Assembly (NCBI GenBank): GCA_015488775.1
Contig: WFNF01000085.1
Location: 1-50,320, forward strand
Source of the DNA: Helicobacteraceae bacterium
GTDB lineage: Bacteria; Campylobacterota; Campylobacteria; Campylobacterales; Sulfurimonadaceae
DNA length: 50,320 bases
Direction of reading: 5' to 3'
Shown: in pieces, positions 10,981 through 44,457 of the stretch
Layout: each line of letters opens with the position of its first letter
Numbering within the stretch: the stretch's first letter is position 1
Position numbers and translations under genes: made by a program
The notes under the pieces: generated by a model
The model's database searches: none
Seen by the model: only the letters and a program-made list of their open reading frames with translations
Told to the model about the DNA's origin: nothing

Positions 10981-11781
10981 TTATTTTAGCCTTACTCTTA
11001 AAAATGAGGCAAATTTTGGTTTTTTATATTTTGTGAAACCATAATACTTAAAAGTTACTATATCTCCAATGTGTGGATGATTTAATCTTTCCTCTTTTGT
11101 GTAACCATTTCCAAGATTAAAAACTATCCCATTATCTAGTTTCAAAACTAAACTCTTAAATTTTTCATTTTTATAGTTTATATCTACAACTAAACCTTCC
11201 ATATCATGAGCTTTTTTTACTTTCAATATACTAGATACTCTTGAAGTTTGGTAAGGTAAATTTGGATTTTTAACCATCACCCCCTCTGCTCCTAGCTTAC
11301 TTAGTTTATCTAAGTAAGACAATAAATGCTTGGTATTTTTACACTCTATCTGATCAATAAAGCTAATATATTTTGATGGATGTTTTTTAAACCATTTTTT
11401 CGCCTTTAACAAACGTTCATAAAAATTTCCATCACTAAAAGGCACTTCAAAAATGTTATAGGTAATTTTATCCCAAGATCCACTTTTTGACATAATTATA
11501 GATTGAGTTAATTCAAAATTTTGACGAGATATATAAAGTTCACCATCTAAAGCAAATGTGGGAAAGTTGTATATAAAAGAGCTTGGGTAATGTAACTCTT
11601 TACCATTTTTACTAAGTAAAGTTTTACCATTCCAAAAGGCACGGATACCATCAAGTTTTTCACTCATTACCCATAAATCTACATTTTGATTTTTATAGTT
11701 TTTTGCATGTTCCAAATCCTTAACACCTAAAGCAAAGATGTTAAGAGAAAAAACAAGCAAAAGATAAAATAAAGTTTTCAT
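10981..11781 (-). CDS. ligE: Periplasmic ATP-dependent DNA ligase, LigE type
   Basis: 266 residues with a Sec signal peptide (MKTLFYLLLVFSLNIFALG) followed by a minimal ligase. Motif I is 'SEKLDGIRA' with the adenylated Lys42, then 'ALDGELYIS' (motif III), 'YNIFEVPF' (IIIa), 'EGVMVKNP' (IV) and 'LKVKKA' (V), and a short OB domain ending 'KPKFASFLRVRLK'. There is no extra DNA-binding domain, as is usual for Lig E. Such enzymes are thought to act on DNA outside the cytoplasm, perhaps in DNA uptake or biofilm DNA. A good AGGA ribosome site precedes the ATG. It lies 46 bases after the RND pump and may be co-transcribed. Confidence 0.92.
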   Translation of the reverse strand: MKTLFYLLLVFSLNIFALGVKDLEHAKNYKNQNVDLWVMSEKLDGIRAFWNGKTLLSKNGKELHYPSSFIYNFPTFALDGELYISRQNFELTQSIIMSKSGSWDKITYNIFEVPFSDGNFYERLLKAKKWFKKHPSKYISFIDQIECKNTKHLLSYLDKLSKLGAEGVMVKNPNLPYQTSRVSSILKVKKAHDMEGLVVDINYKNEKFKSLVLKLDNGIVFNLGNGYTKEERLNHPHIGDIVTFKYYGFTKYKKPKFASFLRVRLK

Positions 11782-11827: not shown

Positions 11828-14800
11828 TTAATTTTTAGGTTTCCAAGCACAAGTATCATCAAAAATAAACTTATAATTTTTGTCGTAACCAACTCTAAAC
11901 ATAAATGAGTAGAAGATAGGTACAACAATAAGTGTCAATAATGTTGCAAAGCCTAAACCAAAGATTATAGAGATAGCCATAGGTTCCCAAAGAGGTCCAC
12001 CTGAAAACCATAATGGAAAAAGACCAACTATAGTTGTCATTGTAGTTAACATAATAGGTCTCATCCGTCTTTGCGCCGCTTCAACTATTGCGTCTTGTGG
12101 CCTAAGGTTATTTACATCAATCTCATACTCAATACGCTCTATCAAAATAATGGCATTATTAACAACTATACCTGCTAAAGAAATAACTCCCAAGTAAGTC
12201 ATAAAACCAAAATAAGATGAAGTTATATATAAACCAAAGATCACACCAATCATACCAAGTGGAATAGTCATTAAGATGAGTGCAGTTCTTCTAAAAGAGT
12301 TAAACTGAATTATTAATAACATAAGTATAATCATAAAAGCAAAAGGTAGTTGAGCCCCTATAGCTTCTTGGGCAGAGGCTGAACTTTCAATCTCTCCACC
12401 GTAAACATAACTATATCCATTTTTCCAATCTAAAAGATCTATATGTTTGTCTATAACTCTTTTAGCATCAAAAACTGTTGTTCCATCAAGAACATCTGCA
12501 TTAATAGTAATTGTATGAACCCCATCTCTATTTATAATCATAGGTGGCTTCCAAACTAAATCTATGCTTGCAACTTGCGTTAATGGCACAGATTGACCAG
12601 TTGCTGGAACAAACACTAATGTACTTCTTAAAGTATCCAAGTCTACTTGTCCATTTTGAGAGGATCTCATGATAATGGGAGTAGTTTTATCATCAGACCT
12701 AAACTGTGTTATCTCACGCCCACTAAGAGCAATTTGTAAAGAGTTTGCTATATCTGAGTATGAAACACCCGCGTGGTAAGCCAAAGATGGGTTAATATCT
12801 ACAACTATTTTTTCAGACCATAAGCCCCAATCATCACTTACATTCACAACTCCAGAAGTTGATTTTAAAATCACTTTCACATCATCTGCGTAAGCTTGAA
12901 GCTTATCAATATCTGGTCCAGATATACGTAATTGTAAAGGGTTTTTAACAGGAGGACCATTGTCTAATTTATTTACAACAACTAAGGCATCGGCAAAGTT
13001 TTTATTTGTAAACTCCTCTATAGCCTCTTTAATATTTTCATTTGCTTCTATATCTACAGTATTTACTAAAACCTCTGCAGTTTTAGATGATCTACCCATT
13101 GGAGTGTTGTTTATCCAAAATCTTGGACTACCCTCACCTATAAAACTAATATATGATTCAACTTGATTTGGTTGCTTAGTTTTTAAGAAAAACTCTAACT
13201 CTTTTGTAATCTCTTCAGTTTTATCAATATTTGTTCCCTCAGGCAAACCTATATTTACAACTAAAGATGGTTGAGATGATGGTGGAAAAAAGATTTTTGG
13301 TATAGACATATTCATAAATACTGAACCAGCAATTAACACACCTAAAAAAAGCATTGTCAAGTATCTATGTCTTAAAGCAGAACATAAAGATTTTTTAAAC
13401 ATATTACACATAGGATTATCGTAAGTAAACTTAGGTTCACTTCCAACTTTTAAAAATATATATGAAAGCATTGGTGTTAGAGTTAGAGCGAGAATCCAAG
13501 ATGATAAAAGTGTTATACTTACAACTTCAAACAAGGCTTTTGTGTATTCAGCAGCTACAGATTCTGCCATATATATAGGTAAAAATGCGGCTGCAGTTGT
13601 TAATGATGCAGTTAAAAGAGATACTTTTAACTCATCTACAGTTTTTATAGATGCATCTAATGCACTTGCTCCCTCATCCATCCGCACTAAAATAGACTCT
13701 GTTATAACTATGGCGTTATCAACAAGAAGTCCTAAAGATATAATAAGGGCAGCTAAAGATACTTGATTTAGGCCAATGTCTAACTTCCACATAAAAAATA
13801 AAGCTGCCAAAATAGATGTCGGGATTAAAGATGTAACAATTAAACCTGTTCTAAGGCCTAGGGTAACTAACATCACCACCATAACTATTACTATAGCTTC
13901 GATTAAAGATAGAACAAAATTATTTATAATATACTCAACAAGATTTGGCTCATTAAAAGCAAGGTTAAACTCAATACCTATAGGGTAATATGCATTTAAC
14001 TTTTCTATCATATGTTTTACAGAATCACCTAAATCAAGTATATTTCCACCTGGATTTAATGATATTGCTAAAGCAATTGACCTTTCTGAATCCGAGTGGA
14101 CAAGAGGATCACGAGGTTCAGAGTATCCCCTATGTATCTGAACTATATCCTCAAGATGTAAAATATCATTTTTCCCATGGAGAGGGACAATTGTTTGTCC
14201 AAGTTCAGCAAGTGTATTAAGGTTTCCTGTTGGTTCAAGCACAAGTCTTTGTGGGCCTATAGTAATCGCACCACCTGGTGTTATAATATTTCTTTTTTTG
14301 ATTATATCAGCAAGTTCAGAAGGGGATATACCAACCTCAGCAAGTTTGGCATTTGAAAACTCAATATATATTTTCTCTTTTTGTTGCCCTATAAGTTTTA
14401 CTTGACCAACATTTTTAAGATTAAGAAATTCCTCTTTAACATCATTTGCTATCTTATCCAACTCAGCGTAGGTATAACCCTCACCAACAATAGTTACAAT
14501 AGTTCCATAAACTTCAGAAAAAGAGTCTGACATAGTAGCTTCAGAACTACCATAAGGCAATCTAACATGTTTAAGTTTAGTCCTAATTTTTGACCAAATA
14601 GAATCTAAATCAAAATACTTATCTTGTATATGTACATATATGGTTGAGAGTCCATTTTTACTCTCACTTTCTATAAAACTTATCTCTTCAATCTGCCTAA
14701 GCTTACGCTCTAAAGGCTTAGTTACAAGTGTTTCTATACGTTCAGCTGTAGCTCCTGGAAACTGAGTATTTATAACAGCAGTTCTAATCATAAAAGTTGG

Positions 14801-14914
14801 ATCTTTAGCACGAGGCATCTCGAAAAATGCTACAATCCCCCCAATGATAAAAAATGAAATAATTGCTAAAGTTACCCTATTATTAGTTATAGCAAGTTCT
14901 GTTATACTTTTCAC
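11828..14914 (-). CDS. RND efflux pump inner-membrane permease
   Basis: 1028 residues, the full AcrB-like length with 12 membrane spans and two large periplasmic loops. It opens 'LAITNNRVTLAIISFFIIGGIVAF', has 'FPGATAERIETLVTKPLE', the TM4 segment 'LGLLVDNAIVITESI' and the C-terminal 'PLGMIGVIFGLY' and 'RRMRPIMLTTMTTIVGLFPL'. TM4 carries a single Asp (DN) where AcrB has Asp-Asp, so proton relay uses one TM4 Asp, as in several other RND subfamilies. It overlaps the adaptor gene by four bases. Substrate unknown; the neighbouring FadL suggests something hydrophobic. Confidence 0.93.
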   Translation of the reverse strand: MKSITELAITNNRVTLAIISFFIIGGIVAFFEMPRAKDPTFMIRTAVINTQFPGATAERIETLVTKPLERKLRQIEEISFIESESKNGLSTIYVHIQDKYFDLDSIWSKIRTKLKHVRLPYGSSEATMSDSFSEVYGTIVTIVGEGYTYAELDKIANDVKEEFLNLKNVGQVKLIGQQKEKIYIEFSNAKLAEVGISPSELADIIKKRNIITPGGAITIGPQRLVLEPTGNLNTLAELGQTIVPLHGKNDILHLEDIVQIHRGYSEPRDPLVHSDSERSIALAISLNPGGNILDLGDSVKHMIEKLNAYYPIGIEFNLAFNEPNLVEYIINNFVLSLIEAIVIVMVVMLVTLGLRTGLIVTSLIPTSILAALFFMWKLDIGLNQVSLAALIISLGLLVDNAIVITESILVRMDEGASALDASIKTVDELKVSLLTASLTTAAAFLPIYMAESVAAEYTKALFEVVSITLLSSWILALTLTPMLSYIFLKVGSEPKFTYDNPMCNMFKKSLCSALRHRYLTMLFLGVLIAGSVFMNMSIPKIFFPPSSQPSLVVNIGLPEGTNIDKTEEITKELEFFLKTKQPNQVESYISFIGEGSPRFWINNTPMGRSSKTAEVLVNTVDIEANENIKEAIEEFTNKNFADALVVVNKLDNGPPVKNPLQLRISGPDIDKLQAYADDVKVILKSTSGVVNVSDDWGLWSEKIVVDINPSLAYHAGVSYSDIANSLQIALSGREITQFRSDDKTTPIIMRSSQNGQVDLDTLRSTLVFVPATGQSVPLTQVASIDLVWKPPMIINRDGVHTITINADVLDGTTVFDAKRVIDKHIDLLDWKNGYSYVYGGEIESSASAQEAIGAQLPFAFMIILMLLIIQFNSFRRTALILMTIPLGMIGVIFGLYITSSYFGFMTYLGVISLAGIVVNNAIILIERIEYEIDVNNLRPQDAIVEAAQRRMRPIMLTTMTTIVGLFPLWFSGGPLWEPMAISIIFGLGFATLLTLIVVPIFYSFMFRVGYDKNYKFIFDDTCAWKPKN

Positions 14915-15990
14915 AGTTCAACTCTTACTTTTTGGCCTATACTAACACGAGACATACCAGCAGTTAATACATGCATTTTTCTTTTTAAACCATCTAATAT
15001 CAATATACCATTAGCAGTTAACTTTCCTCTTTTAACATTCTTTTTTGCTATAACACCTACGCCATTTTCGACATCTTGCACTATATATACAAATGTACCA
15101 CTATCATCTTCCAAAACTGCATGTGCAGGTATAATGTAATTACCCTTGCCTAAGCGTGAACTAAAAACAAATGTAACATTAGCAGTCATACCAGGGTGCA
15201 TTTTTTTACTTGGTTTTTTAATCTTTACAGTTACGGGGAATGTAGTAGTTCTATTAGATGAACTATGACCAACAACAGTAACTTTAGCCTCAAATTTTCT
15301 TTTAGATATAGAGTCAAAAGAGACTAAACATCTTTGCCCCTCATTTATCTCATCAATAATAGATCCAGGAACTGAAACAGGAACCTTGATAGACTTAGTA
15401 GAACCAATAGTTGCTATAGTAACAGCAGATGTAACATTTTCACTTTTACGAACTAAAACATCAGATATAGAACCATTGATAGGTGCTTTAAGCTTTGTAT
15501 ATGTAAGTTGTAACTTAGCTTGCTCTAGCCTGTTTTGCATTGCTCTATAACTAGCTTTTGCACTATCCATAGCAGTTCTAGCATTATCCAAATCACTTAA
15601 AGAGCTAGAACGATTTACATAAAGCTTTTTAATTCTATTATATCTTGCTTTAGCATGGTTTAGTTTAGTTTGCACTTGTCTTAAAGAGGCATCTGCTTCA
15701 TTAACTTTTAGTCTCATAAGAGAGTTGTCTATCTCAGCAATAAGATGACCCTTTTTAACTTTTTGCCCAACTTTAACATAAACTTTTTTAACCTTACCAG
15801 CTATATTAAAACTAAGCCTAGCAGCGACATCACTTTTTGCTATACCATTATATGTATAAGTAGAAGTAGCATGAACAGGTTGTACCTCTAAAGTTCTAGC
15901 AAGACGTATAGTCTCTTTATGCTCTTTTTTCTCACAACTTGTAAGTAAAGCTAAGACACTAACTCCAAGTAATACTTTTTTAAACATCAT
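14911..15990 (-). CDS. RND periplasmic adaptor lipoprotein (MFP/HlyD family)
   Basis: 359 residues. A lipoprotein signal ends in the lipobox 'LLTSC', so the protein is probably tethered to the inner membrane. Next come the biotinyl-lipoyl-like halves ('ARLSFNIAGKVKKVYVKVGQKVKKG' and 'LKAPINGSISDVLVRKSENV') around an alpha-helical hairpin (about residues 110-165), then beta-barrel and membrane-proximal domains. It bridges the pump and the outer-membrane channel. Two consecutive ATGs occur; the second at 15987 has the better spacing to AAGGA. It starts seven bases after the TolC-like gene. Confidence 0.93.
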   Translation of the reverse strand: MMFKKVLLGVSVLALLTSCEKKEHKETIRLARTLEVQPVHATSTYTYNGIAKSDVAARLSFNIAGKVKKVYVKVGQKVKKGHLIAEIDNSLMRLKVNEADASLRQVQTKLNHAKARYNRIKKLYVNRSSSLSDLDNARTAMDSAKASYRAMQNRLEQAKLQLTYTKLKAPINGSISDVLVRKSENVTSAVTIATIGSTKSIKVPVSVPGSIIDEINEGQRCLVSFDSISKRKFEAKVTVVGHSSSNRTTTFPVTVKIKKPSKKMHPGMTANVTFVFSSRLGKGNYIIPAHAVLEDDSGTFVYIVQDVENGVGVIAKKNVKRGKLTANGILILDGLKRKMHVLTAGMSRVSIGQKVRVEL

Positions 15991-15997
15991 ATAATCC

Positions 15998-18340
15998 TTA
16001 TAATTCTTCTATATCTTTAAACCACTCTTTAAAAGCTTTTCTTTTCATGCTAAAGTTTACCTTGCCTATCTCTCTTTGAAGTTTAAGCATATCTCTCATA
16101 AAACCATATTTATTTGTATTTTCTACTAATGCAGCATTTAAAGTTTGATTTTGTGCATCAAGTAAGTTAATAATATCTATATTACCTTGAGCATATACAG
16201 TATTTATTAAATTAAGATTCTTTTTAGCAGCCAAATATGACTCATGCGCTAACCTTGTTGAAAGATATGAAGCTTTAGCTTGATAGAGTGAGTTTCTAGT
16301 TCTAAGCTCAATGTCATTTTTAAGTTTTGTTTCCAAAGTTTTTGATGCAAGTAACTCTTCAGCAGACTTTTCATATTCACTAGTAAGTGTACCCCCTGTA
16401 TATAAAGGCATATTAGCATATATTCCAAAAGAGTAAGATGTTGCATCTGGTCTTTTTATACCATTTTGTTTCAATGCAGCCTGAGCTGTTTCATCTAAAT
16501 CCAGATATAGTAGATCTTGTGCTATTCCACCTTTAAAATATATATTTGGTGCATACATAGCAGTTTTAGTCATCTCAGTAGCAATTTTTCTAGCTTTAAC
16601 TATCTCTGAATATTCTCTAAGGTTTGGAGAATGTTTTGCTGCATCTGCAACTATAAATTTTTCAAACTTTTTAAAACCATTTGGATCTCTAAAATAATCT
16701 CTTATCTCACTTTTACTAGTCATAAAAATTCTATCTTCTGGCTCTATATCTTGAAGATTTATATTTAAATCCATAGGTAAATCCAATAAAGAGTTTAATG
16801 AAAATTTAGACTTTTCTATAGCTGCATATGTAAAAAGAAGCTCTTTTTTATCGTTAGCAATTTTTGATTGCCATCTATATATATCTGAATTACTACCAAT
16901 ACCTATATTTTTTTTAGTTTGGGCTGAACGAAGAGAACTTTTTGAAAGCTCTAGATTTGATTTTTGTATAACAAGTTTGGTTTTTAGCTGCATTATGTTT
17001 AGATAAATCATAGCTACTTGAAGTGAAACATCTTGTCTGATATACGCTAATTTTGAGTTTTTAGACTCTTGTATAGTCTCATCAATTTTTACAGTTTTTG
17101 AAACACTTTGATCATATACAAGTTGTTTTACTTTAAGATTAACTTCGAGTTTTGATTTTGGTAAAGCACCAAAAGATGCCTTTGCTCTATCATCATCAAT
17201 TTGAGCTGCATCAAAACCTAAAGAGAGTTGAGGATAAAGTTGGCCATCACTACTCTCTACGCTTTTTTTACTAGCTAAAATCTCATGTTTACTAGAGATA
17301 ACATATAGATTATACTCTATGGCTCTATTCATAATCTCCTCTAAAGAGAAAAAGTGTGAATTATCATCAGACTCATTTATAACATTTGCACGAGATAAAA
17401 GATCCCATCCAGGTGTATAATCAACATCATAAGCTGTTTGCATATTTAAAGATAACTCTGCATTTGTTTTGAAATCAACAGGTAAGCTTGATGGCTCTAC
17501 ACCCAAAGCAATTTGTTGGATACTTAAAGATATCTGTCTAATAAGTCTTTTGTTATCTGTGTTGGGGATAGTTCCAAAAAGTGCACCTAAATCAACATCA
17601 TCACGACCAACTGCAGCAAAAGATGGAAGTTGTTTAATTCTGAGATCATCATAAAGTTTTATACGCTCTTGTGTATCTAACTGAAAAAGTGGCGTTGTAT
17701 AAACATAATCCACACCTTCTGGTATCTTAGAAAGGTCATCATCTATCTCATTTGCTCTAATTGGGACTAATGATGCATTAAGCTCAGCCATTTCAAAAGC
17801 TTTTTTAAGATATTTACCAACATCTGGAGTGTACTTTAACATGGCATAGTTCATAAGAACTGCTACATTTTTACCTTTTAAAAGTTTTTTCATATTGTAA
17901 ATATCTGAACTTAGAGAAAGGTATCCACTAGTATAAGTTAAGTTATACTTACCAGAAGTTCCATTTTTATAAGGGATATGTTGCATTTTAGGATCTATAA
18001 CAGTTGTAGCGATAACAGGTTTTCTATATCTAGACTTTCTAGTTGCAAGATGTGAGGAGAGTGCACCTATAGTTAAAATAAGATTTACTTTTGGGTTCTT
18101 CATCGCCTTGTTAATACCCTCAGCAATAGCAAAATACTTCCATTGCCCATCAACTCTCATAGATTTTGGAAATCTAACATTATAATCACGATTAAGAAGA
18201 GATACTATCTCTTTTTTAAGTTGTCCCTCATAATCCCCTCTAAACTTAGTTGCACCATCAGTAATAATAGCAATATTGTAAACTCTTTTAGCATACAGTG
18301 AAGATGAGATTATAAAAAATATAAGTAAAAGTTTGAACAT
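15998..18340 (-). CDS. TolC-like outer-membrane channel fused to an ABC-type binding domain
   Basis: 780 residues, much longer than TolC (about 430-490). A signal peptide (MFKLLLIFFIISSSLYA) is followed by about 280 residues resembling ABC-transporter substrate-binding proteins of the TrpX type: 'NIAIITDGATKFRGDYEGQLKKEI', 'VNLILTIGALSSHLATR', 'KPVIATTVIDP', 'GKNVAVLMNY', 'FAAVGRDDVDLGALFG'. From about residue 330 two outer-membrane efflux repeats follow, with long helices and 'QGNIDIINLLDAQNQTLNAAL' near the end. The fusion would place a ligand-sensing lobe in the periplasm on the channel itself. The adaptor and pump genes follow directly. Confidence 0.87.
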   Translation of the reverse strand: MFKLLLIFFIISSSLYAKRVYNIAIITDGATKFRGDYEGQLKKEIVSLLNRDYNVRFPKSMRVDGQWKYFAIAEGINKAMKNPKVNLILTIGALSSHLATRKSRYRKPVIATTVIDPKMQHIPYKNGTSGKYNLTYTSGYLSLSSDIYNMKKLLKGKNVAVLMNYAMLKYTPDVGKYLKKAFEMAELNASLVPIRANEIDDDLSKIPEGVDYVYTTPLFQLDTQERIKLYDDLRIKQLPSFAAVGRDDVDLGALFGTIPNTDNKRLIRQISLSIQQIALGVEPSSLPVDFKTNAELSLNMQTAYDVDYTPGWDLLSRANVINESDDNSHFFSLEEIMNRAIEYNLYVISSKHEILASKKSVESSDGQLYPQLSLGFDAAQIDDDRAKASFGALPKSKLEVNLKVKQLVYDQSVSKTVKIDETIQESKNSKLAYIRQDVSLQVAMIYLNIMQLKTKLVIQKSNLELSKSSLRSAQTKKNIGIGSNSDIYRWQSKIANDKKELLFTYAAIEKSKFSLNSLLDLPMDLNINLQDIEPEDRIFMTSKSEIRDYFRDPNGFKKFEKFIVADAAKHSPNLREYSEIVKARKIATEMTKTAMYAPNIYFKGGIAQDLLYLDLDETAQAALKQNGIKRPDATSYSFGIYANMPLYTGGTLTSEYEKSAEELLASKTLETKLKNDIELRTRNSLYQAKASYLSTRLAHESYLAAKKNLNLINTVYAQGNIDIINLLDAQNQTLNAALVENTNKYGFMRDMLKLQREIGKVNFSMKRKAFKEWFKDIEEL

Positions 18341-18398: not shown

Positions 18399-18423
18399 AA
18401 TTAACTACCATTGGTAGTTAATT
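18399..18423 (-). terminator. Stem-loop across the fadL-like stop codon
   Basis: An 11-bp perfect stem (AATTAACTACC / GGTAGTTAATT) with a three-base loop embeds the TAG stop of the FadL-like gene. No U-tract follows directly, so it is more likely an mRNA-protecting or translation-affecting hairpin than a classic terminator. Confidence 0.45.
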
Positions 18424-19973
18424 CCCATTGAAAGTGTTGTAATTGACATTTTAGTTGTATAAGTAGCAGGTAAAGATGTAAGTGCCAATCCATTAAGATT
18501 AAGATCAGGAACTGGATTTAGTAAAACAGATTGTGTATGCTCAACCTCTGGTGAATAAACTAAAGCAAAATCAACATCTAGAGAGTCCATAAACTTATAC
18601 CCCATACCAAAAGTATAGTGAGTAGTTGGAATAGCTGGGAAACCAACCATATTTAGCATAGCTAAAGCTTGAGTAAAAATAGTATGACCTTGAACATCAT
18701 TTAAACCCATACCAAAACCACCTGCACCATTTTTAGTTTCAGCAAGAGGAGAAGCAGCGTAGTTATAACCACCTCTAAGTGAAAAAGCTTTTTTCTTATA
18801 CTCCATACCCATAGCAAAGACATGTTGATTGTTCCAACCAAAATCTTTATAACCATCTGCACTACCCCAAGCTATATATCTATAATCTCCAGTAATATCT
18901 AGATTATCATTTAATTTATAATCAGCACCAATTGCAAATTCCCAAGGTTGTTCAAGCACTAAATTATCTAAATTTTCCTCTGTAGCTGCTGCTCTATCTA
19001 ACATACCTTTTATAGCTGTTGTTGGCATAATAGCAACTAGGGTATCTGCTACATATGATGGTAAACCTGCATTAGTAAGAATATCATGAAGTGCATTTGG
19101 GTCTGTTAAATCTGCTAAATTTCCTTTACCTGTTGCTTTCATATAATCATCAATCATTACAGCTGCCGCATCAGGTCCAAACTGTTCAAAGTTAGCAACT
19201 TTTTTATACTCATAAGATAAAGGAGATTTGTAAGATAAACCAATTGTAAAATTATCAGCAACATCCACACTCATACCAAGTTCAGCACCAAATGCAAACT
19301 CTAAAGTTTCACCACCCATATTTGTTCCAAATAGACCAGATCTAGTTGATTGTATAGGTACACCCTTGCTGTTTACTTTAGCACTATCTTCATCATAATT
19401 TATAGATAAAGAACCCATACCTAAAACTGGAGATATACCAAAACTCACATTTTCAGTTTTATAAGCAAAAGTTGGTATCATCTTCATATGAAGTAAACTT
19501 GTTTTCATTTTTCTATGTGGTGAACGGTTGTTGTTTGCATTTACCATCTCTTGCGTAGGAAGAGAGTTAACATAATCAACACCCATACCTGCTACACCAG
19601 CAAAAGCAAAACCAAAAGAGAACTCATCATCTATTGGCATAACAAAAGCCATAGCAGGAATAAAACTCATATCTATATGATTTAAAGACTTTGCATATAC
19701 TGGTTCTGGAACTTGAGCCAATGGGTTTGAATCTTGTATAGTATTTGCAACACTTGCCCCAAAGTATGTAACATCAAATGATGCTTCCATGCTTTGTGCT
19801 TTAGATATAAGAGCAGGATTCATACCTATAGCATTTGCAGCTTGTGTGTAGTGAGCAACACCAGTTCCACCCATTGATCTATTTACAGTTGAGGTAGCAA
19901 TCATATTCACCCCATTTGTAGCAAAAAGAGATGATGCAAGTATTGATGAAAGTAATAAAGGTTTTTTTAACAT
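18405..19973 (-). CDS. FadL/OmpP1/TodX-family outer-membrane transporter
   Basis: 522 residues. A signal peptide (MLKKPLLLSSILASSLFA) is followed by the N-terminal hatch 'GGTGVAHYTQAANAIGMNPAL', the 'NPA' motif of the FadL family, and then a 14-strand-like barrel ending in an aromatic C-terminus (MGINYQW), typical of outer-membrane proteins. FadL homologues let long-chain fatty acids or aromatic hydrocarbons diffuse through the outer membrane. It sits between a large lipoprotein and the TolC-adaptor-pump genes. The ligand is unknown. Confidence 0.9.
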   Translation of the reverse strand: MLKKPLLLSSILASSLFATNGVNMIATSTVNRSMGGTGVAHYTQAANAIGMNPALISKAQSMEASFDVTYFGASVANTIQDSNPLAQVPEPVYAKSLNHIDMSFIPAMAFVMPIDDEFSFGFAFAGVAGMGVDYVNSLPTQEMVNANNNRSPHRKMKTSLLHMKMIPTFAYKTENVSFGISPVLGMGSLSINYDEDSAKVNSKGVPIQSTRSGLFGTNMGGETLEFAFGAELGMSVDVADNFTIGLSYKSPLSYEYKKVANFEQFGPDAAAVMIDDYMKATGKGNLADLTDPNALHDILTNAGLPSYVADTLVAIMPTTAIKGMLDRAAATEENLDNLVLEQPWEFAIGADYKLNDNLDITGDYRYIAWGSADGYKDFGWNNQHVFAMGMEYKKKAFSLRGGYNYAASPLAETKNGAGGFGMGLNDVQGHTIFTQALAMLNMVGFPAIPTTHYTFGMGYKFMDSLDVDFALVYSPEVEHTQSVLLNPVPDLNLNGLALTSLPATYTTKMSITTLSMGINYQW

Positions 19974-20084: not shown

Positions 20085-22568
20085 TTAGTTTGTAGTGTTA
20101 GTGTCTGTAACTTCAGCGTTACTAGAGTCACTAAATAGACCAACTACACTGTCACCAGCATCTTTAACAGATTGAAGGATTGCATCCATATCTATATTAA
20201 GAGCAGCAAACACATCAAGTGTTATTTTATAAACATGGTAATTTTTAGTTTCATCGTTTGTTAGTGGCTCATCACCATTTAACTCAACTTCAACCCAAGT
20301 AACATTGTTATCTGCATTTACAAGATCACCCATAGAAGCGTTTAATGTATCTACACCATCTACAAGTTCAGTTACTATGTAAAGATCAACTGTACCAGCA
20401 GAGATATTGAAATCAAAGTTATCGTAACCACTGTTTTCTAAAGAAGCAGGTAGTTTTAACCAATCAAGATTTGCCATCCAAGATGGTAAGTATTCCCAGT
20501 AAGTTGAAGCACCATCATATAAGTACTCTTTAACATATTGGTTTTCAGAGAAATCGTATAACCAATTAGCATCTATACCACTTACATAATTAAGAACAAA
20601 ATCACTTGCACCAGTGTAAACATAATCAAAAGTTATATCACCAAATGCAGGTAGTTTTAATGCAGATGTATTTCCATCTTGACCAACAACTAGAGCAGAT
20701 GAATTAATATCATAGTTTACTAAGTCTTCCGCAATCGCTAACTCAACTTCGTCATGTAGTTTTGCAACTGCATTATCATAAGCAACTATAGTATCGTTAT
20801 TGAATTGAGAAGTAACAGCAGTCCAGTTTAAGTCAGTAACAGCGTTATAATAAGCATCAAAACTAAAGTTATCCCAAGCACTAATCGCTTCAGAAATTAT
20901 AATTCCAGTCCAATCAGTACCAATCACACCTAATCCACCAGCTTGTGCTTGTGCATTTGAACTTGTACCAGAAGTTAAATTATCATATAATGATAAAATA
21001 CCATCCCAAGCTTGAGAATACTCTAAGTTATTTTGTTTAAGGTAGAAAAGACCTGCATTCATAAATGAAGTACCATAAGTCATGTATTTATCAGCTGGAA
21101 TTAAACCTGCAAAACCAATAAATGCATCTTTATATGCAGTTAAACCATAAGCATTTTCTAAAACACCATCAGCATTTGCAGTACCATTAATACCATCTAA
21201 CATTGAACTTGCAATTGCAATAATGTTATAGTAAGATTGGTTTGTATCTGTAGATGTTACATAACCATCAGTCTCATTACCAATTCTTTTTGTACCAGTA
21301 AAGATAAAATCCATAAATGCAACAGCAGTTGCTTCATCATTTGTCTTAACCTTATCCATAGCATCAACAAAACCTAAAGTAGAAGCTGGTGTTTTGAACA
21401 TAGCATAGAAAAATTTCTCATTTTTAAGTTCATTAGCATCACCACGAGTCTCATCACCAATGTTAAACATAAGTCTTGGGAAAGCTTCTTGACCATGGTA
21501 CTCAGGAACAATATCATTTGTTGACGGAACAACAAAGTAATGAACAGCTAAGTCAGCCATAAGGTCACCCATATTTTTAGTTGTATGGTTAGGAGACATA
21601 ATCATAGCATCACCTAAACAGTTATACATAGGTGCATCTATATAAGAGAATAAAAATGCAGGAACGTTTACAGACTCTTTAATTGGTGTTCCATCTTGAG
21701 TACCATCTGTAAATCCATAGTTTCTTAAAACAGCTAAGTCTGTGAAAAGCTCACCAAACTCTTGGTTATCTTGAAGAAGAGGACACATCTTCTCACTTAA
21801 CCACCAGTTCTTTTTCATAACATTTAACATAATCTCTGTAATAGTTTCAGATTTTATAGCAAGTTTCATCATCTCATTAGTAAGTGTACCACTATCTAAC
21901 ATAAGTTTGAAAACTTGAGCAGTTAATTCTGTACCTACAGAAGTATCTACTAAATCAACTACAGCACCTTTAACAGCATCTCCAGCAGGTGTTACTACTT
22001 TATCTTTAACTACATCTTTAGCAGGTTGTAAAACTTTATCATCAATCTTTTTACCAATCTCTTTAAGTTTTGTACCAATACCAAAGATTCTAGAAGAGCT
22101 TAGAGTTACCTCTTTACCTGTCATTGACTCTAAAAAAGTTGCCATGTAAAGTTCGTCAAAACTCACACCACTTGCTTTAATAGTTTCAATATCTTTTTGT
22201 GTAAGAACACCAGCCTTATATAGTTCAGATTGTGCATCTTTAATAACTGCACCCTTTGAACCATTAGCCGTATTAGATAAAAGTGAGTTAGCAATGTCAG
22301 CTAAAGAGTAAGATGTATCTGCAACAGATCTTGAAGATGTATTTTTACTACCATTTGACGCAATAGCTCTTTGCATATCTTGAATATTTTTAGTATATGA
22401 AGCGGAAGAAGCAATCTCTTTAGAGTAAGCATTTTTTTCAACTACAGGTTTAAATGTAGCAGTGCCTGAAGCCTCTTTTTGTTTTTCATTTGAGTTAGTA
22501 TCACCACATCCTGTAAAAAGAAGTGTTGCAACTGCAACTGAACCAAGTAAATTTTTATAGTTTATCAT
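20085..22568 (-). CDS. Large lipoprotein of unknown function
   Basis: 827 residues. The signal peptide ends in the lipobox 'LLFTGCGD', with Cys at about residue 21, so it is lipid-anchored, probably on the outer membrane given its partners. The mature protein is acidic, with a low-complexity Ser/Lys start, a predicted helical region near 170-260 and a long alpha/beta region rich in Trp, Tyr and Asn toward the end. I recognise no enzyme motif. It has a very strong ribosome site (GAGGAGG). Its position as first gene before a FadL-like porin and an RND system suggests a surface or periplasmic partner of that transport module. Confidence 0.8.
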   Translation of the reverse strand: MINYKNLLGSVAVATLLFTGCGDTNSNEKQKEASGTATFKPVVEKNAYSKEIASSASYTKNIQDMQRAIASNGSKNTSSRSVADTSYSLADIANSLLSNTANGSKGAVIKDAQSELYKAGVLTQKDIETIKASGVSFDELYMATFLESMTGKEVTLSSSRIFGIGTKLKEIGKKIDDKVLQPAKDVVKDKVVTPAGDAVKGAVVDLVDTSVGTELTAQVFKLMLDSGTLTNEMMKLAIKSETITEIMLNVMKKNWWLSEKMCPLLQDNQEFGELFTDLAVLRNYGFTDGTQDGTPIKESVNVPAFLFSYIDAPMYNCLGDAMIMSPNHTTKNMGDLMADLAVHYFVVPSTNDIVPEYHGQEAFPRLMFNIGDETRGDANELKNEKFFYAMFKTPASTLGFVDAMDKVKTNDEATAVAFMDFIFTGTKRIGNETDGYVTSTDTNQSYYNIIAIASSMLDGINGTANADGVLENAYGLTAYKDAFIGFAGLIPADKYMTYGTSFMNAGLFYLKQNNLEYSQAWDGILSLYDNLTSGTSSNAQAQAGGLGVIGTDWTGIIISEAISAWDNFSFDAYYNAVTDLNWTAVTSQFNNDTIVAYDNAVAKLHDEVELAIAEDLVNYDINSSALVVGQDGNTSALKLPAFGDITFDYVYTGASDFVLNYVSGIDANWLYDFSENQYVKEYLYDGASTYWEYLPSWMANLDWLKLPASLENSGYDNFDFNISAGTVDLYIVTELVDGVDTLNASMGDLVNADNNVTWVEVELNGDEPLTNDETKNYHVYKITLDVFAALNIDMDAILQSVKDAGDSVVGLFSDSSNAEVTDTNTTN

Positions 22569-42258: not shown

Positions 42259-44457
42259 TTGCAAAATTACAACAAAGTACTTGAATATTTTAAAGGTATG
42301 GTAACAAGGTTAGCTTCATTAGATGAATCATCACAAATAAACTATGAAGAGTATATGGATTATATAGAGGTGGTTTTTAAGGCTCAAGCTTTTGAGATAG
42401 CACTAGAGATGTACATACTTTTAGAAGACAATATATCAAATACTAAGTATGCTGCACAGTGTCATAACAACATAGGTATTTGCCATGTGGCATTAGGACA
42501 TCCTAAAAAAGATATTTTTAATAGCTTTATGAGAGCAGTTAAACTTGATAGCGATGAAGTTGAGTATGCAAGTAACCTTGCACTTTCTACTCAAGATGAT
42601 TTAGACCCAAGTTACTACACTTGCAGTAAAAGAGAGACAAAAAGTAAAGCAAAACCTGTTATAGATGCAACACTAAGAGCAATACGACTAAGTGCTAAAC
42701 GTATTGAAGTTGATGCAAAAGAGATAGATAGAGATGATTTATCTCCTGAACTTTATGATAGAGTTACACATATAGACTTGTCATACAAAAATTTAGAAGA
42801 GTTACCTTTTTGGCTTGAAAAGTTGGTTAACCTAATCTCCTTAGATATATCTCACAATAAAATCTCTAAAGATGCAAAGTTTAAATATCTTTCTAAAAAC
42901 CTAAGATACTTAAACATATCTCACAATGAGATAAAAAGAATAGGTACAGATTTTTTAGGCTATGAAAATTTAGAGTACTTAGATATAAGTCATAACTCTC
43001 TAATAGATATACCTCTACTACTTCAGACACATGAGCTAATCTATTTGGACTTAAGCAACAACAAACTAGATAAACTAAAAAACGGTTTTATAGATGATAT
43101 CCCAAATTTAAAGTACTTTAACATAAGCAACAATAAACTAAAAACATTACCTAAAGCTATGCTAGATAAAAACCTTATGGATACAGATACCTATAAAGAT
43201 GATTATAAAGATACATATAAAAACTATATTTTAAAACAATCTATTTCTGATCAAGAGATTAGCTTTGAAGATAAATCTGGATTTGATATTATTTCCCATT
43301 TTGAGGGGTCTGATCTTTATGACTTTGAGAGATGTCATGACTTTCAACTTAGTAGTGATACTAGTGAGTTTTTAGATTATTGGTTAAGTGAAAAGCCAAC
43401 AGAGAAAGAAAAAAAATCATTTAAAGTTTTTGCACAAACTGGTGATGGTGGGTACTTTGCTTATTGGAAATATAATTACTTAGTTTTAGATCCTCCAATA
43501 GTTTACTTTGGTAGTGATGGGGCTTACAACATGATTGCAGCAAATGAGGATGACTTAACATGTTTACTTGCAACAGGACAACGTATGGACGCAGAAAATT
43601 CTGATGAAGAGGTATGGAAAAGTTCATACTGGGACTCACATATTGATGATATACTAGAAGATGGTGAGTATGATACTTTTGATGATGTAAAAAAAGCTTT
43701 TTATGATGATATAGATGAGTATGCTAAACTTGTAAAAACAAAGTACAAACTACAAGATAGCAAAGTTTATATAGAAAATATGAAAAGACATCCTAGTTTT
43801 AACAAATGGGTTGAAACAAGAGAACTTGTTTTTAGTGCACAGCCTACATCATATAACAAAGCATTTACAGGTATATCTTCTACAACCCAAGTACTTTTAG
43901 GAATACTGGAAAGTTGGGGAGATTCTAATAAAGTTTATAGTTTGTATGATTTTCATGATATGGAAGTAGTTGGCTCTTTTGGTAAGTCTGATTGTGTTGA
44001 GGAATGGTTTAAAGATGACTTTTATGATAAGGGTAATGACTTTTTGGAGTTCGCTATAAATAGAGCTGGTGATTCTTATGCTTTATGGGTGTATCCTGAG
44101 CTAAAAGGGGAACCAGCAGTTGTTTTTTTAGATGGTGATGGAGATGTTGAACTTTTAGCTCCTAGTATGGGCGAGTTTTTAGCTTTACTTACAAATGAAG
44201 ATGTTCTTCTAGGTAATGTTGAAGATGATGTTCTGTACTGGTATGAGTTATATACTTGTCAGTATGATGATATTGTAGAGGAAAATGAAGAGTTTGAAGA
44301 TACTGATGAAGTAGAAGATGCTATAAAAAAAGAGATAAAAACACTAAATGCTAAAGTCAAAAAAGCATACAATTATCCAGAGCTATTAAACATTATAAAA
44401 AACTATAATCGCCATCCAGATTTTAAAAAGTGGTTTGATCAGAATGTTAATTATTAG
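42259..44457 (+). CDS. TPR-like / leucine-rich repeat / double SUKH-like protein
   Basis: 732 residues, start TTG at 42259; the next Met (residue 14) has no usable ribosome site. No signal peptide. Residues 1-125 look like TPR-type helices. Residues 168-298 hold about five to six leucine-rich repeats (LxxLDISHNKI, LRYLNISHNEI, LEYLDISHNSL, LIYLDLSNNKL, LKYFNISNNKL). Two SMI1/KNR4 (SUKH)-like units follow: about 341-440 ('FAQTGDGGYFAYW', 'PPIVYFGSDGAYNMIA') and 560-650 ('FAINRAGDSYALW', 'PAVVFLDGDGDVELLA'), each ending with an 'RHPxFxKW' tail. The protein is very acidic. SUKH domains often serve in toxin immunity, but here they may be scaffolding. Confidence 0.75.
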   Translation: MQNYNKVLEYFKGMVTRLASLDESSQINYEEYMDYIEVVFKAQAFEIALEMYILLEDNISNTKYAAQCHNNIGICHVALGHPKKDIFNSFMRAVKLDSDEVEYASNLALSTQDDLDPSYYTCSKRETKSKAKPVIDATLRAIRLSAKRIEVDAKEIDRDDLSPELYDRVTHIDLSYKNLEELPFWLEKLVNLISLDISHNKISKDAKFKYLSKNLRYLNISHNEIKRIGTDFLGYENLEYLDISHNSLIDIPLLLQTHELIYLDLSNNKLDKLKNGFIDDIPNLKYFNISNNKLKTLPKAMLDKNLMDTDTYKDDYKDTYKNYILKQSISDQEISFEDKSGFDIISHFEGSDLYDFERCHDFQLSSDTSEFLDYWLSEKPTEKEKKSFKVFAQTGDGGYFAYWKYNYLVLDPPIVYFGSDGAYNMIAANEDDLTCLLATGQRMDAENSDEEVWKSSYWDSHIDDILEDGEYDTFDDVKKAFYDDIDEYAKLVKTKYKLQDSKVYIENMKRHPSFNKWVETRELVFSAQPTSYNKAFTGISSTTQVLLGILESWGDSNKVYSLYDFHDMEVVGSFGKSDCVEEWFKDDFYDKGNDFLEFAINRAGDSYALWVYPELKGEPAVVFLDGDGDVELLAPSMGEFLALLTNEDVLLGNVEDDVLYWYELYTCQYDDIVEENEEFEDTDEVEDAIKKEIKTLNAKVKKAYNYPELLNIIKNYNRHPDFKKWFDQNVNY

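Follow-up and report, generated by a model that had tools for sequence, protein, structure and literature searches.

A class I binding-protein domain fused to a TolC-family outer-membrane channel in Sulfurimonadaceae, encoded beside RND or RbbA-like ABC exporters

We analysed a 50,320-nucleotide stretch of DNA from a Sulfurimonadaceae genome (contig WFNF01000085.1; the whole stretch is called the window here). Five co-directional genes on its minus strand encode, in order, a putative lipoprotein, a FadL/TodX-family protein, a fusion protein, a periplasmic adaptor and an RND pump (Table 1). The intergenic gaps from lipoprotein to pump are 111, 64 and 7 bp followed by a 4-bp overlap; i.e. the adaptor gene starts 7 bp past the stop codon of the fusion, and the start of the pump gene overlaps the end of the adaptor gene. 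The fusion occupies a single unbroken 780-aa ORF; read on the plus strand, these positions are riddled with stop codons. Adaptor and pump both score above curated cut-offs, giving a tripartite RND set within the operon. Elsewhere in the window, a small ATP-dependent DNA ligase (DNA_ligase_A_M plus OB) with a signal-peptide-like start lies directly downstream of the RND gene (10981-11781, minus strand), and a 732-aa protein with leucine-rich repeats is encoded at 42259-44457 (plus strand).

Table 1. Genes of the fusion operon and parts of the fusion protein, in window coordinates
Feature	Coordinates	Strand	Length or basis
Large putative lipoprotein, N-terminus ...LLFTGCGD	20085..22568	-	827 aa; without Pfam/NCBIfam match above cut-off
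FadL/TodX-family outer-membrane protein, upstream of fusion	18405..19973	-	PF03349, 79.6 vs 29.7 bits
Fusion gene: TrpX-type binding-protein domain and TolC-family outer-membrane channel	15998..18340	-	780 aa
Putative signal peptide, residues 1-17	18290..18340	-	Sequence reading: hydrophobic run to ...SSSLYA, without lipobox cysteine
Class I periplasmic-binding-protein domain, residues 19-318	17387..18286	-	Profile vs 3LKV/3LFT; model vs 3LKV
Linker, residues 319-332	17345..17386	-	14 or 15 residues in 32/32 fused rows compared
TolC/OEP channel part, residues 333-780	16001..17344	-	PF02321 twice; TolC 1ek9 model match
Membrane-fusion (periplasmic adaptor) protein	14911..15990	-	TIGR01730, 222 vs 94.9 bits; HlyD_D23
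RND pump (AcrB family permease)	11828..14914	-	ACR_tran, 547 vs 28 bits

Run on the whole protein, Pfam sees the channel only, as two OEP repeats (PF02321; 89.8 bits against a cut-off of 22). For the first ~320 residues there was no Pfam model above its cut-off, the best being ABC_sub_bind (PF04392; E 0.005, 16.6 vs 25.9 bits); when PF04392 was tried on five fused domains, it gave three matches, all below the cut-off. A profile built from 22 relatives picked up two TrpX-type proteins of solved structure, 3LKV (E 8.3e-10) and 3LFT (E 3.6e-4).

We also modelled the protein with AlphaFold2 from five sequences. The binding domain mostly reaches a pLDDT of 60-87, with dips (averaged per block of ten residues), whilst residues 309-419 and other channel parts fall below 50. 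The predicted domain superimposes on 3LKV with Z 22.3 (274 aligned residues, rmsd 4.0 A), on 3LFT with Z 21.8 and on CD0873 with Z 21.6, covering 274-282 residues across the three references. Foldseek was also run on the model for fold matches, and a structure search of viral proteins returned nothing useful. Channel residues 331-766 map onto TolC 1-414 (1ek9) with Z 18.9 (344 aligned, rmsd 8.2) and onto 9tg4 with Z 20.4 (341 aligned, rmsd 9.2), TolC entries overall giving ~18-20; these values should be read with caution, as many of the residues have pLDDT below 50 and helical folds need a Z well above 13. In this alignment, TolC residue 1 falls on residue 331 of the fusion. A second model, of a relative from the type B loci described below, gave a domain that matches 3LKV with Z 20.0 (286 aligned, rmsd 4.2). 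Overall confidence is low for both whole-protein models (window protein, mean pLDDT 58.6 and pTM 0.41; type B, 59.6 and 0.38), so that the relative pose of the two parts is not readable from them.

There is thus strong support for the gene product being a TolC-family outer-membrane factor with its N-terminus extended by a class I (TrpX/CD0873-type) domain. The preliminary description had proposed, from the letters alone, that about 280 TrpX-like residues precede a complete TolC-family channel in one frame, with adaptor and RND genes adjoining. The arrangement is borne out, and the likeness to TrpX holds in both the profile and the predicted structure. It had also allowed that the N-terminal part might fail to fold as a binding protein; profile, Foldseek and model alike give it a binding-protein fold. 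It caught the fusion but overlooked that the gene lies on the minus strand, that the fusion is conserved and that it has kin in an ABC exporter.

We surveyed genomes within Campylobacterota for both parts of the protein. With the binding domain as query, 5/298 and then 11/397 genomes of two phylum samples matched, all in the family of the window (Sulfurimonadaceae, from the taxonomy of the named loci), and within that family 32/228 genomes matched. The channel query at E 1e-40 found the identical 32 of the 228 family genomes, at 33 places (at most the seven best candidates per genome being scored); at E 1e-25, 200 phylum genomes gave three matches, all fused (at most eight best candidates each). 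At the cut-offs used, neither part was met without the other among the best candidates per genome of the phylum samples and the 228 family genomes. Uninterrupted fused frames of at least 782 aa occupy 31 of the 33 places, the other two being pieces at contig starts; in all there are 31 full-length fused frames (the window and 30 further loci), and the carriers span eight genera. A scan with the type B alignment and two motifs returned at least four loci, those listed all being Sulfurimonadaceae, and a scan of genome contigs with the single protein gave no relative.

One copy lies on the Sulfuricurvum kujiense plasmid pSULKU01 (WP_041667226.1), where its annotation reads simply 'ABC transporter substrate binding protein'. 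This was the single hit at E 1e-3 when 72,556 plasmid records were scanned with the domain from locus L060; with the window domain, two records matched at E 0.01, of which the second is a weak hit to Aureimonas covering 55% of the query. Close to its operon, pSULKU01 also encodes phospholipase A and patatin, a theme of lipids or the envelope that the LpxR genes of type B (below) share.

A frameshift or sequencing error had been the other doubt raised at the outset, and it is answered by this recurrence: because there are 31 full-length fused frames, from a fusion found in 32 of the 228 family genomes, frameshift, assembly error and chance joining are excluded as its origin. The binding domain is fused to the export channel.

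When the 33 loci (window included) were sorted by their neighbours, 16 fell into type A, 16 into type B and one into a third type. In type A, as in the window, an adaptor gene adjoins the fusion (15/16) and an RND gene is present in 14/16, with FadL upstream in 13/16 and a homologue of the lipoprotein upstream in 12/16. Contig ends cut four of the loci that are short of neighbours (L052, L057, L064 and L076); L054 is cut downstream, and FadL is absent from the upstream stretch that is covered. A close relative of the type A adaptor occurs in 17 of the 228 family genomes, which are the 16 type A genomes and that of L069 (at most the eight best candidates per genome). L069 is the sole locus of the third type and has an RND pump. 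A ~445-aa protein without a Pfam match is encoded just upstream of the fusion in 7/16 type A loci (e.g. L048:10245-11591) and is absent from the window.

In type B, all 16 loci carry an adaptor, an RbbA-like protein and an ABC-2 permease (with the RbbA-like gene split in L065), and 15/16 have a TetR gene upstream; these proteins were identified by Pfam in L039 and by similarity to those of L039 elsewhere. The RbbA-like gene is annotated rbbA in S. kujiense. The type B partners resemble the RbbA/YhiI/YhhJ exporters. Amongst 249 phylum genomes, an RbbA-like protein was found in four (at most the three best candidates per genome scored): type B fusions accompany it in two of them, the third (L074, a member of a different family in the order) has a plain channel of 409 aa in the operon, and the fourth, which belongs to the family of the window, lacks an adjoining channel. 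An LpxR-family (lipid A deacylase family) gene closes the operon in 8/16 type B loci (L039:2095-3090 and seven others), and genome G425 bears both fusion types, one of type A and one of type B (L058 and L061).

The operon thus strongly supports a role for the fused channel as the exit duct of a tripartite exporter. What appears to be new, as far as gene neighbourhoods can tell, is that this channel works with two pump classes, RND and RbbA-like ABC. Each component (channel, fold, pump types) is already known, and it is their combination that is the new element: we found no description of such a fusion in a library of open-access journal articles.

To place the two lineages, a channel tree was built by a quick method from 31 fused and 20 plain rows, seven of the plain rows having long branches. 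Nine genomes with 30 PF02321 loci between them supplied 18 distinct frames for the plain set, to which L002 and L074 were added; L104 (fused) and L092 (short) were dropped from it. The tree also omits L057, which is partial, and the split copy of G572. A branch with SH-aLRT support of 100% separates all the fused channels from the 20 plain ones. Type A (14 rows) and type B (16 rows) each form one side of a branch at 99%, with L069 apart. Since the fused channels form one clade against the plain ones, one fusion accounts for all, and a single fusion event in the ancestry of the Sulfurimonadaceae copies is strongly supported.

We then compared the rate of change in the two parts. The dN/dS of the domain was 0.04-0.25 in 11/11 pairs, although dS was high in several of the domain comparisons and saturated in five of the channel comparisons; these values indicate that the binding domain is under purifying selection. 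In type A the domain is no less conserved than the channel: for the 13 full-length rows, identity to the window is 38-52% over the domain as against 36-44% over the channel. Linker length is 14 residues in 27/32 rows and 15 in the other 5/32. Taken together, the dN/dS, the domain identity and the constant linker point to a selected domain held in a fixed geometry.

In a list chosen after viewing the alignment, all 15 type A rows keep D/N-P at 116-117, N133 and D262, which align to positions common to 3LKV and 3LFT, and S95-S96 and P217 are likewise invariant (15/15). Type B has lost most of the TrpX-like motifs. The 'IDNT' motif, common to 3LKV and 3LFT, is absent from both types. Of the three references, 3LFT binds tryptophan, 3LKV phenylalanine and CD0873 tyrosine (PMC6816091). 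As 'IDNT' is absent from both types, aromatic amino acids are an unsafe guess as ligand of the fused domain. At the cleft edge (the C-terminal ends of the strands) there was no extra conservation, with 235/301 circular shifts doing as well for the whole set, 249/301 for type A alone and 234/301 for type B alone; no excess appeared at any of three test-window sizes or in either type. Divergence between types A and B at the cleft edge (eight residues) was somewhat higher, with 44/301 shifts as high, which we do not count as a finding. This lack of special conservation in the alignments is the chief evidence against a shared, conserved ligand.

Amongst known systems, the fusion resembles TolC and other outer membrane factors (PF02321) in its two OEP repeats, its fold and the adaptor and pump in its operon, but carries a binding domain of ~300 residues before the position that corresponds to TolC residue 1. 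TolC has none, and OprM-type channels have a lipid anchor at that N-terminal site. The domain shares the class I fold of the TrpX/CD0873-type proteins (3LFT, 3LKV, 6HNI; PF04392), with Z 21.6-22.3 and a 3LKV profile match of E 8e-10, but falls below the PF04392 cut-off, does not keep 'IDNT' and sits on an export channel. The uptake context of PF04392-type genes, beside an ABC uptake permease and ATPase, is replaced here by an adaptor with either an RND pump or an RbbA-like exporter. Type B is like other RbbA-like ABC exporters in that one protein combines two ABC domains with an ABC-2 permease and is accompanied by a further permease and an HlyD adaptor, but it has a dedicated fused channel gene, unlike the L074 operon with its plain OEP. 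Venus-flytrap receptors (the AtGLR3.4 channel and the mGlu receptors) share the domain fold, in AtGLR3.4 on a channel (Z 15-16); they are eukaryotic with unrelated membrane parts, and the likeness is an analogy only.

Within the same phylum, PF04392 also serves as a fused periplasmic domain on histidine-kinase sensors. We found it at 14 places in 10/121 genomes of a phylum sample. Of 12 places inspected, eight have what by eye we take to be kinase motifs (L108, L109, L111, L112, L115 and L117-L119, all in other families of the order), two are degenerate and two stand alone. An origin of the fused domain from these sensors was considered and rejected: for every one of them the score of its profile over the full sequence stays below 3 bits, with one 7-bit stretch in the stand-alone L114. 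Because of these low scores, the TrpX-type proteins are the nearer kin.

As the fused form is conserved across the family with two kinds of pump, the domain probably contributes to the working of the exporter. Its position bears on what that work might be. The H1 helix of TolC-type channels is part of an equatorial belt involved in adaptor engagement, and the lipid anchor of OprM starts from this region (PMC8277102). The E. coli lipoprotein YbjP follows the N-terminal helix of TolC, straddling two protomers (PMC13082787); like the fused domain, it is a periplasmic accessory near the N-terminal helix of the channel, but it is a separate lipoprotein of another family, whereas the fused domain is covalent, two-lobed and present in every copy found of this channel. 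With a short, fixed linker at the belt, we infer that the domain is positioned to affect how the adaptor docks or the duct opens, and is poorly sited for supplying the pump.

The reading we tentatively put foremost, at a little short of even chances, is that the domain senses a ligand and thereby gates or licenses the channel. The channel would trimerise and so set three two-lobed domains around the equatorial belt in the periplasm. A periplasmic small molecule would shut the lobes of a domain, and this movement, carried through the short linker to belt helix H1, would favour adaptor docking or duct opening. The net effect would be a built-in sensor that lets export follow a ligand with no transcriptional step in between. 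The neighbouring FadL and lipoprotein genes (type A) and LpxR genes (half of type B) hint that such a ligand may be hydrophobic or envelope-derived.

The same fold might instead have lost ligand binding and serve as a docking collar, a rigid scaffold at the belt by which the adaptor, the peptidoglycan or the outer membrane is recruited or held steady, in the manner of YbjP on E. coli TolC. This is a serious alternative, albeit one we think improbable on balance: the cleft edge lacks excess conservation, type B lacks most TrpX-like motifs, one scaffold would fit two pump classes and a periplasmic partner is described at the same site of TolC (PMC13082787). However, S95-S96, N/D116-P117, N133 and D262 are kept in 15/15 type A rows, and a collar needs no whole two-lobed fold, yet this fold is kept in both lineages. 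Capture of the export cargo in the periplasm, with transfer to adaptor or pump and a raised local concentration, would suit a fold typical of cargo-delivering solute-binding proteins, and a domain common to two pump classes fits one cargo type per lineage. We nevertheless consider it unlikely, since attachment at the equivalent of TolC residue 1, at the equatorial belt, lies away from the pump entrance and offers no evident route into the sealed conduit. Of the preliminary suggestion that a ligand lobe could gate export or load substrate, gating would be the likelier half: the site of attachment speaks against handing substrate directly to the pump. The cleft-edge test was negative. That two genes were joined without function, by frameshift, assembly error or a recent local accident, is scarcely credible given single frames at 31 of 33 places in 32 genomes and eight genera, a copy on the public plasmid of an isolate and a dN/dS far below 1.

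If the domain is a ligand sensor, a stronger form of that reading can be put forward, more doubtfully: a receptor-gated export duct, in which a Venus-flytrap domain built into a TolC-type channel directly licenses efflux, as a stable unit that has been paired with both proton-driven RND and ATP-driven ABC pumps.

The S. kujiense example carries a practical warning, since a gene labelled as a substrate-binding protein is an efflux channel and such annotations can thus mislead. Opening of TolC-type ducts and their matching to pumps are usually ascribed to the adaptor and the pump alone. A conserved domain of ligand-binding type at the adaptor-docking belt, common to RND and ABC exporters, offers a natural test of the duct's own role in substrate recognition or gating and, if the sensor reading is true, these bacteria would have a receptor built into the export duct itself.
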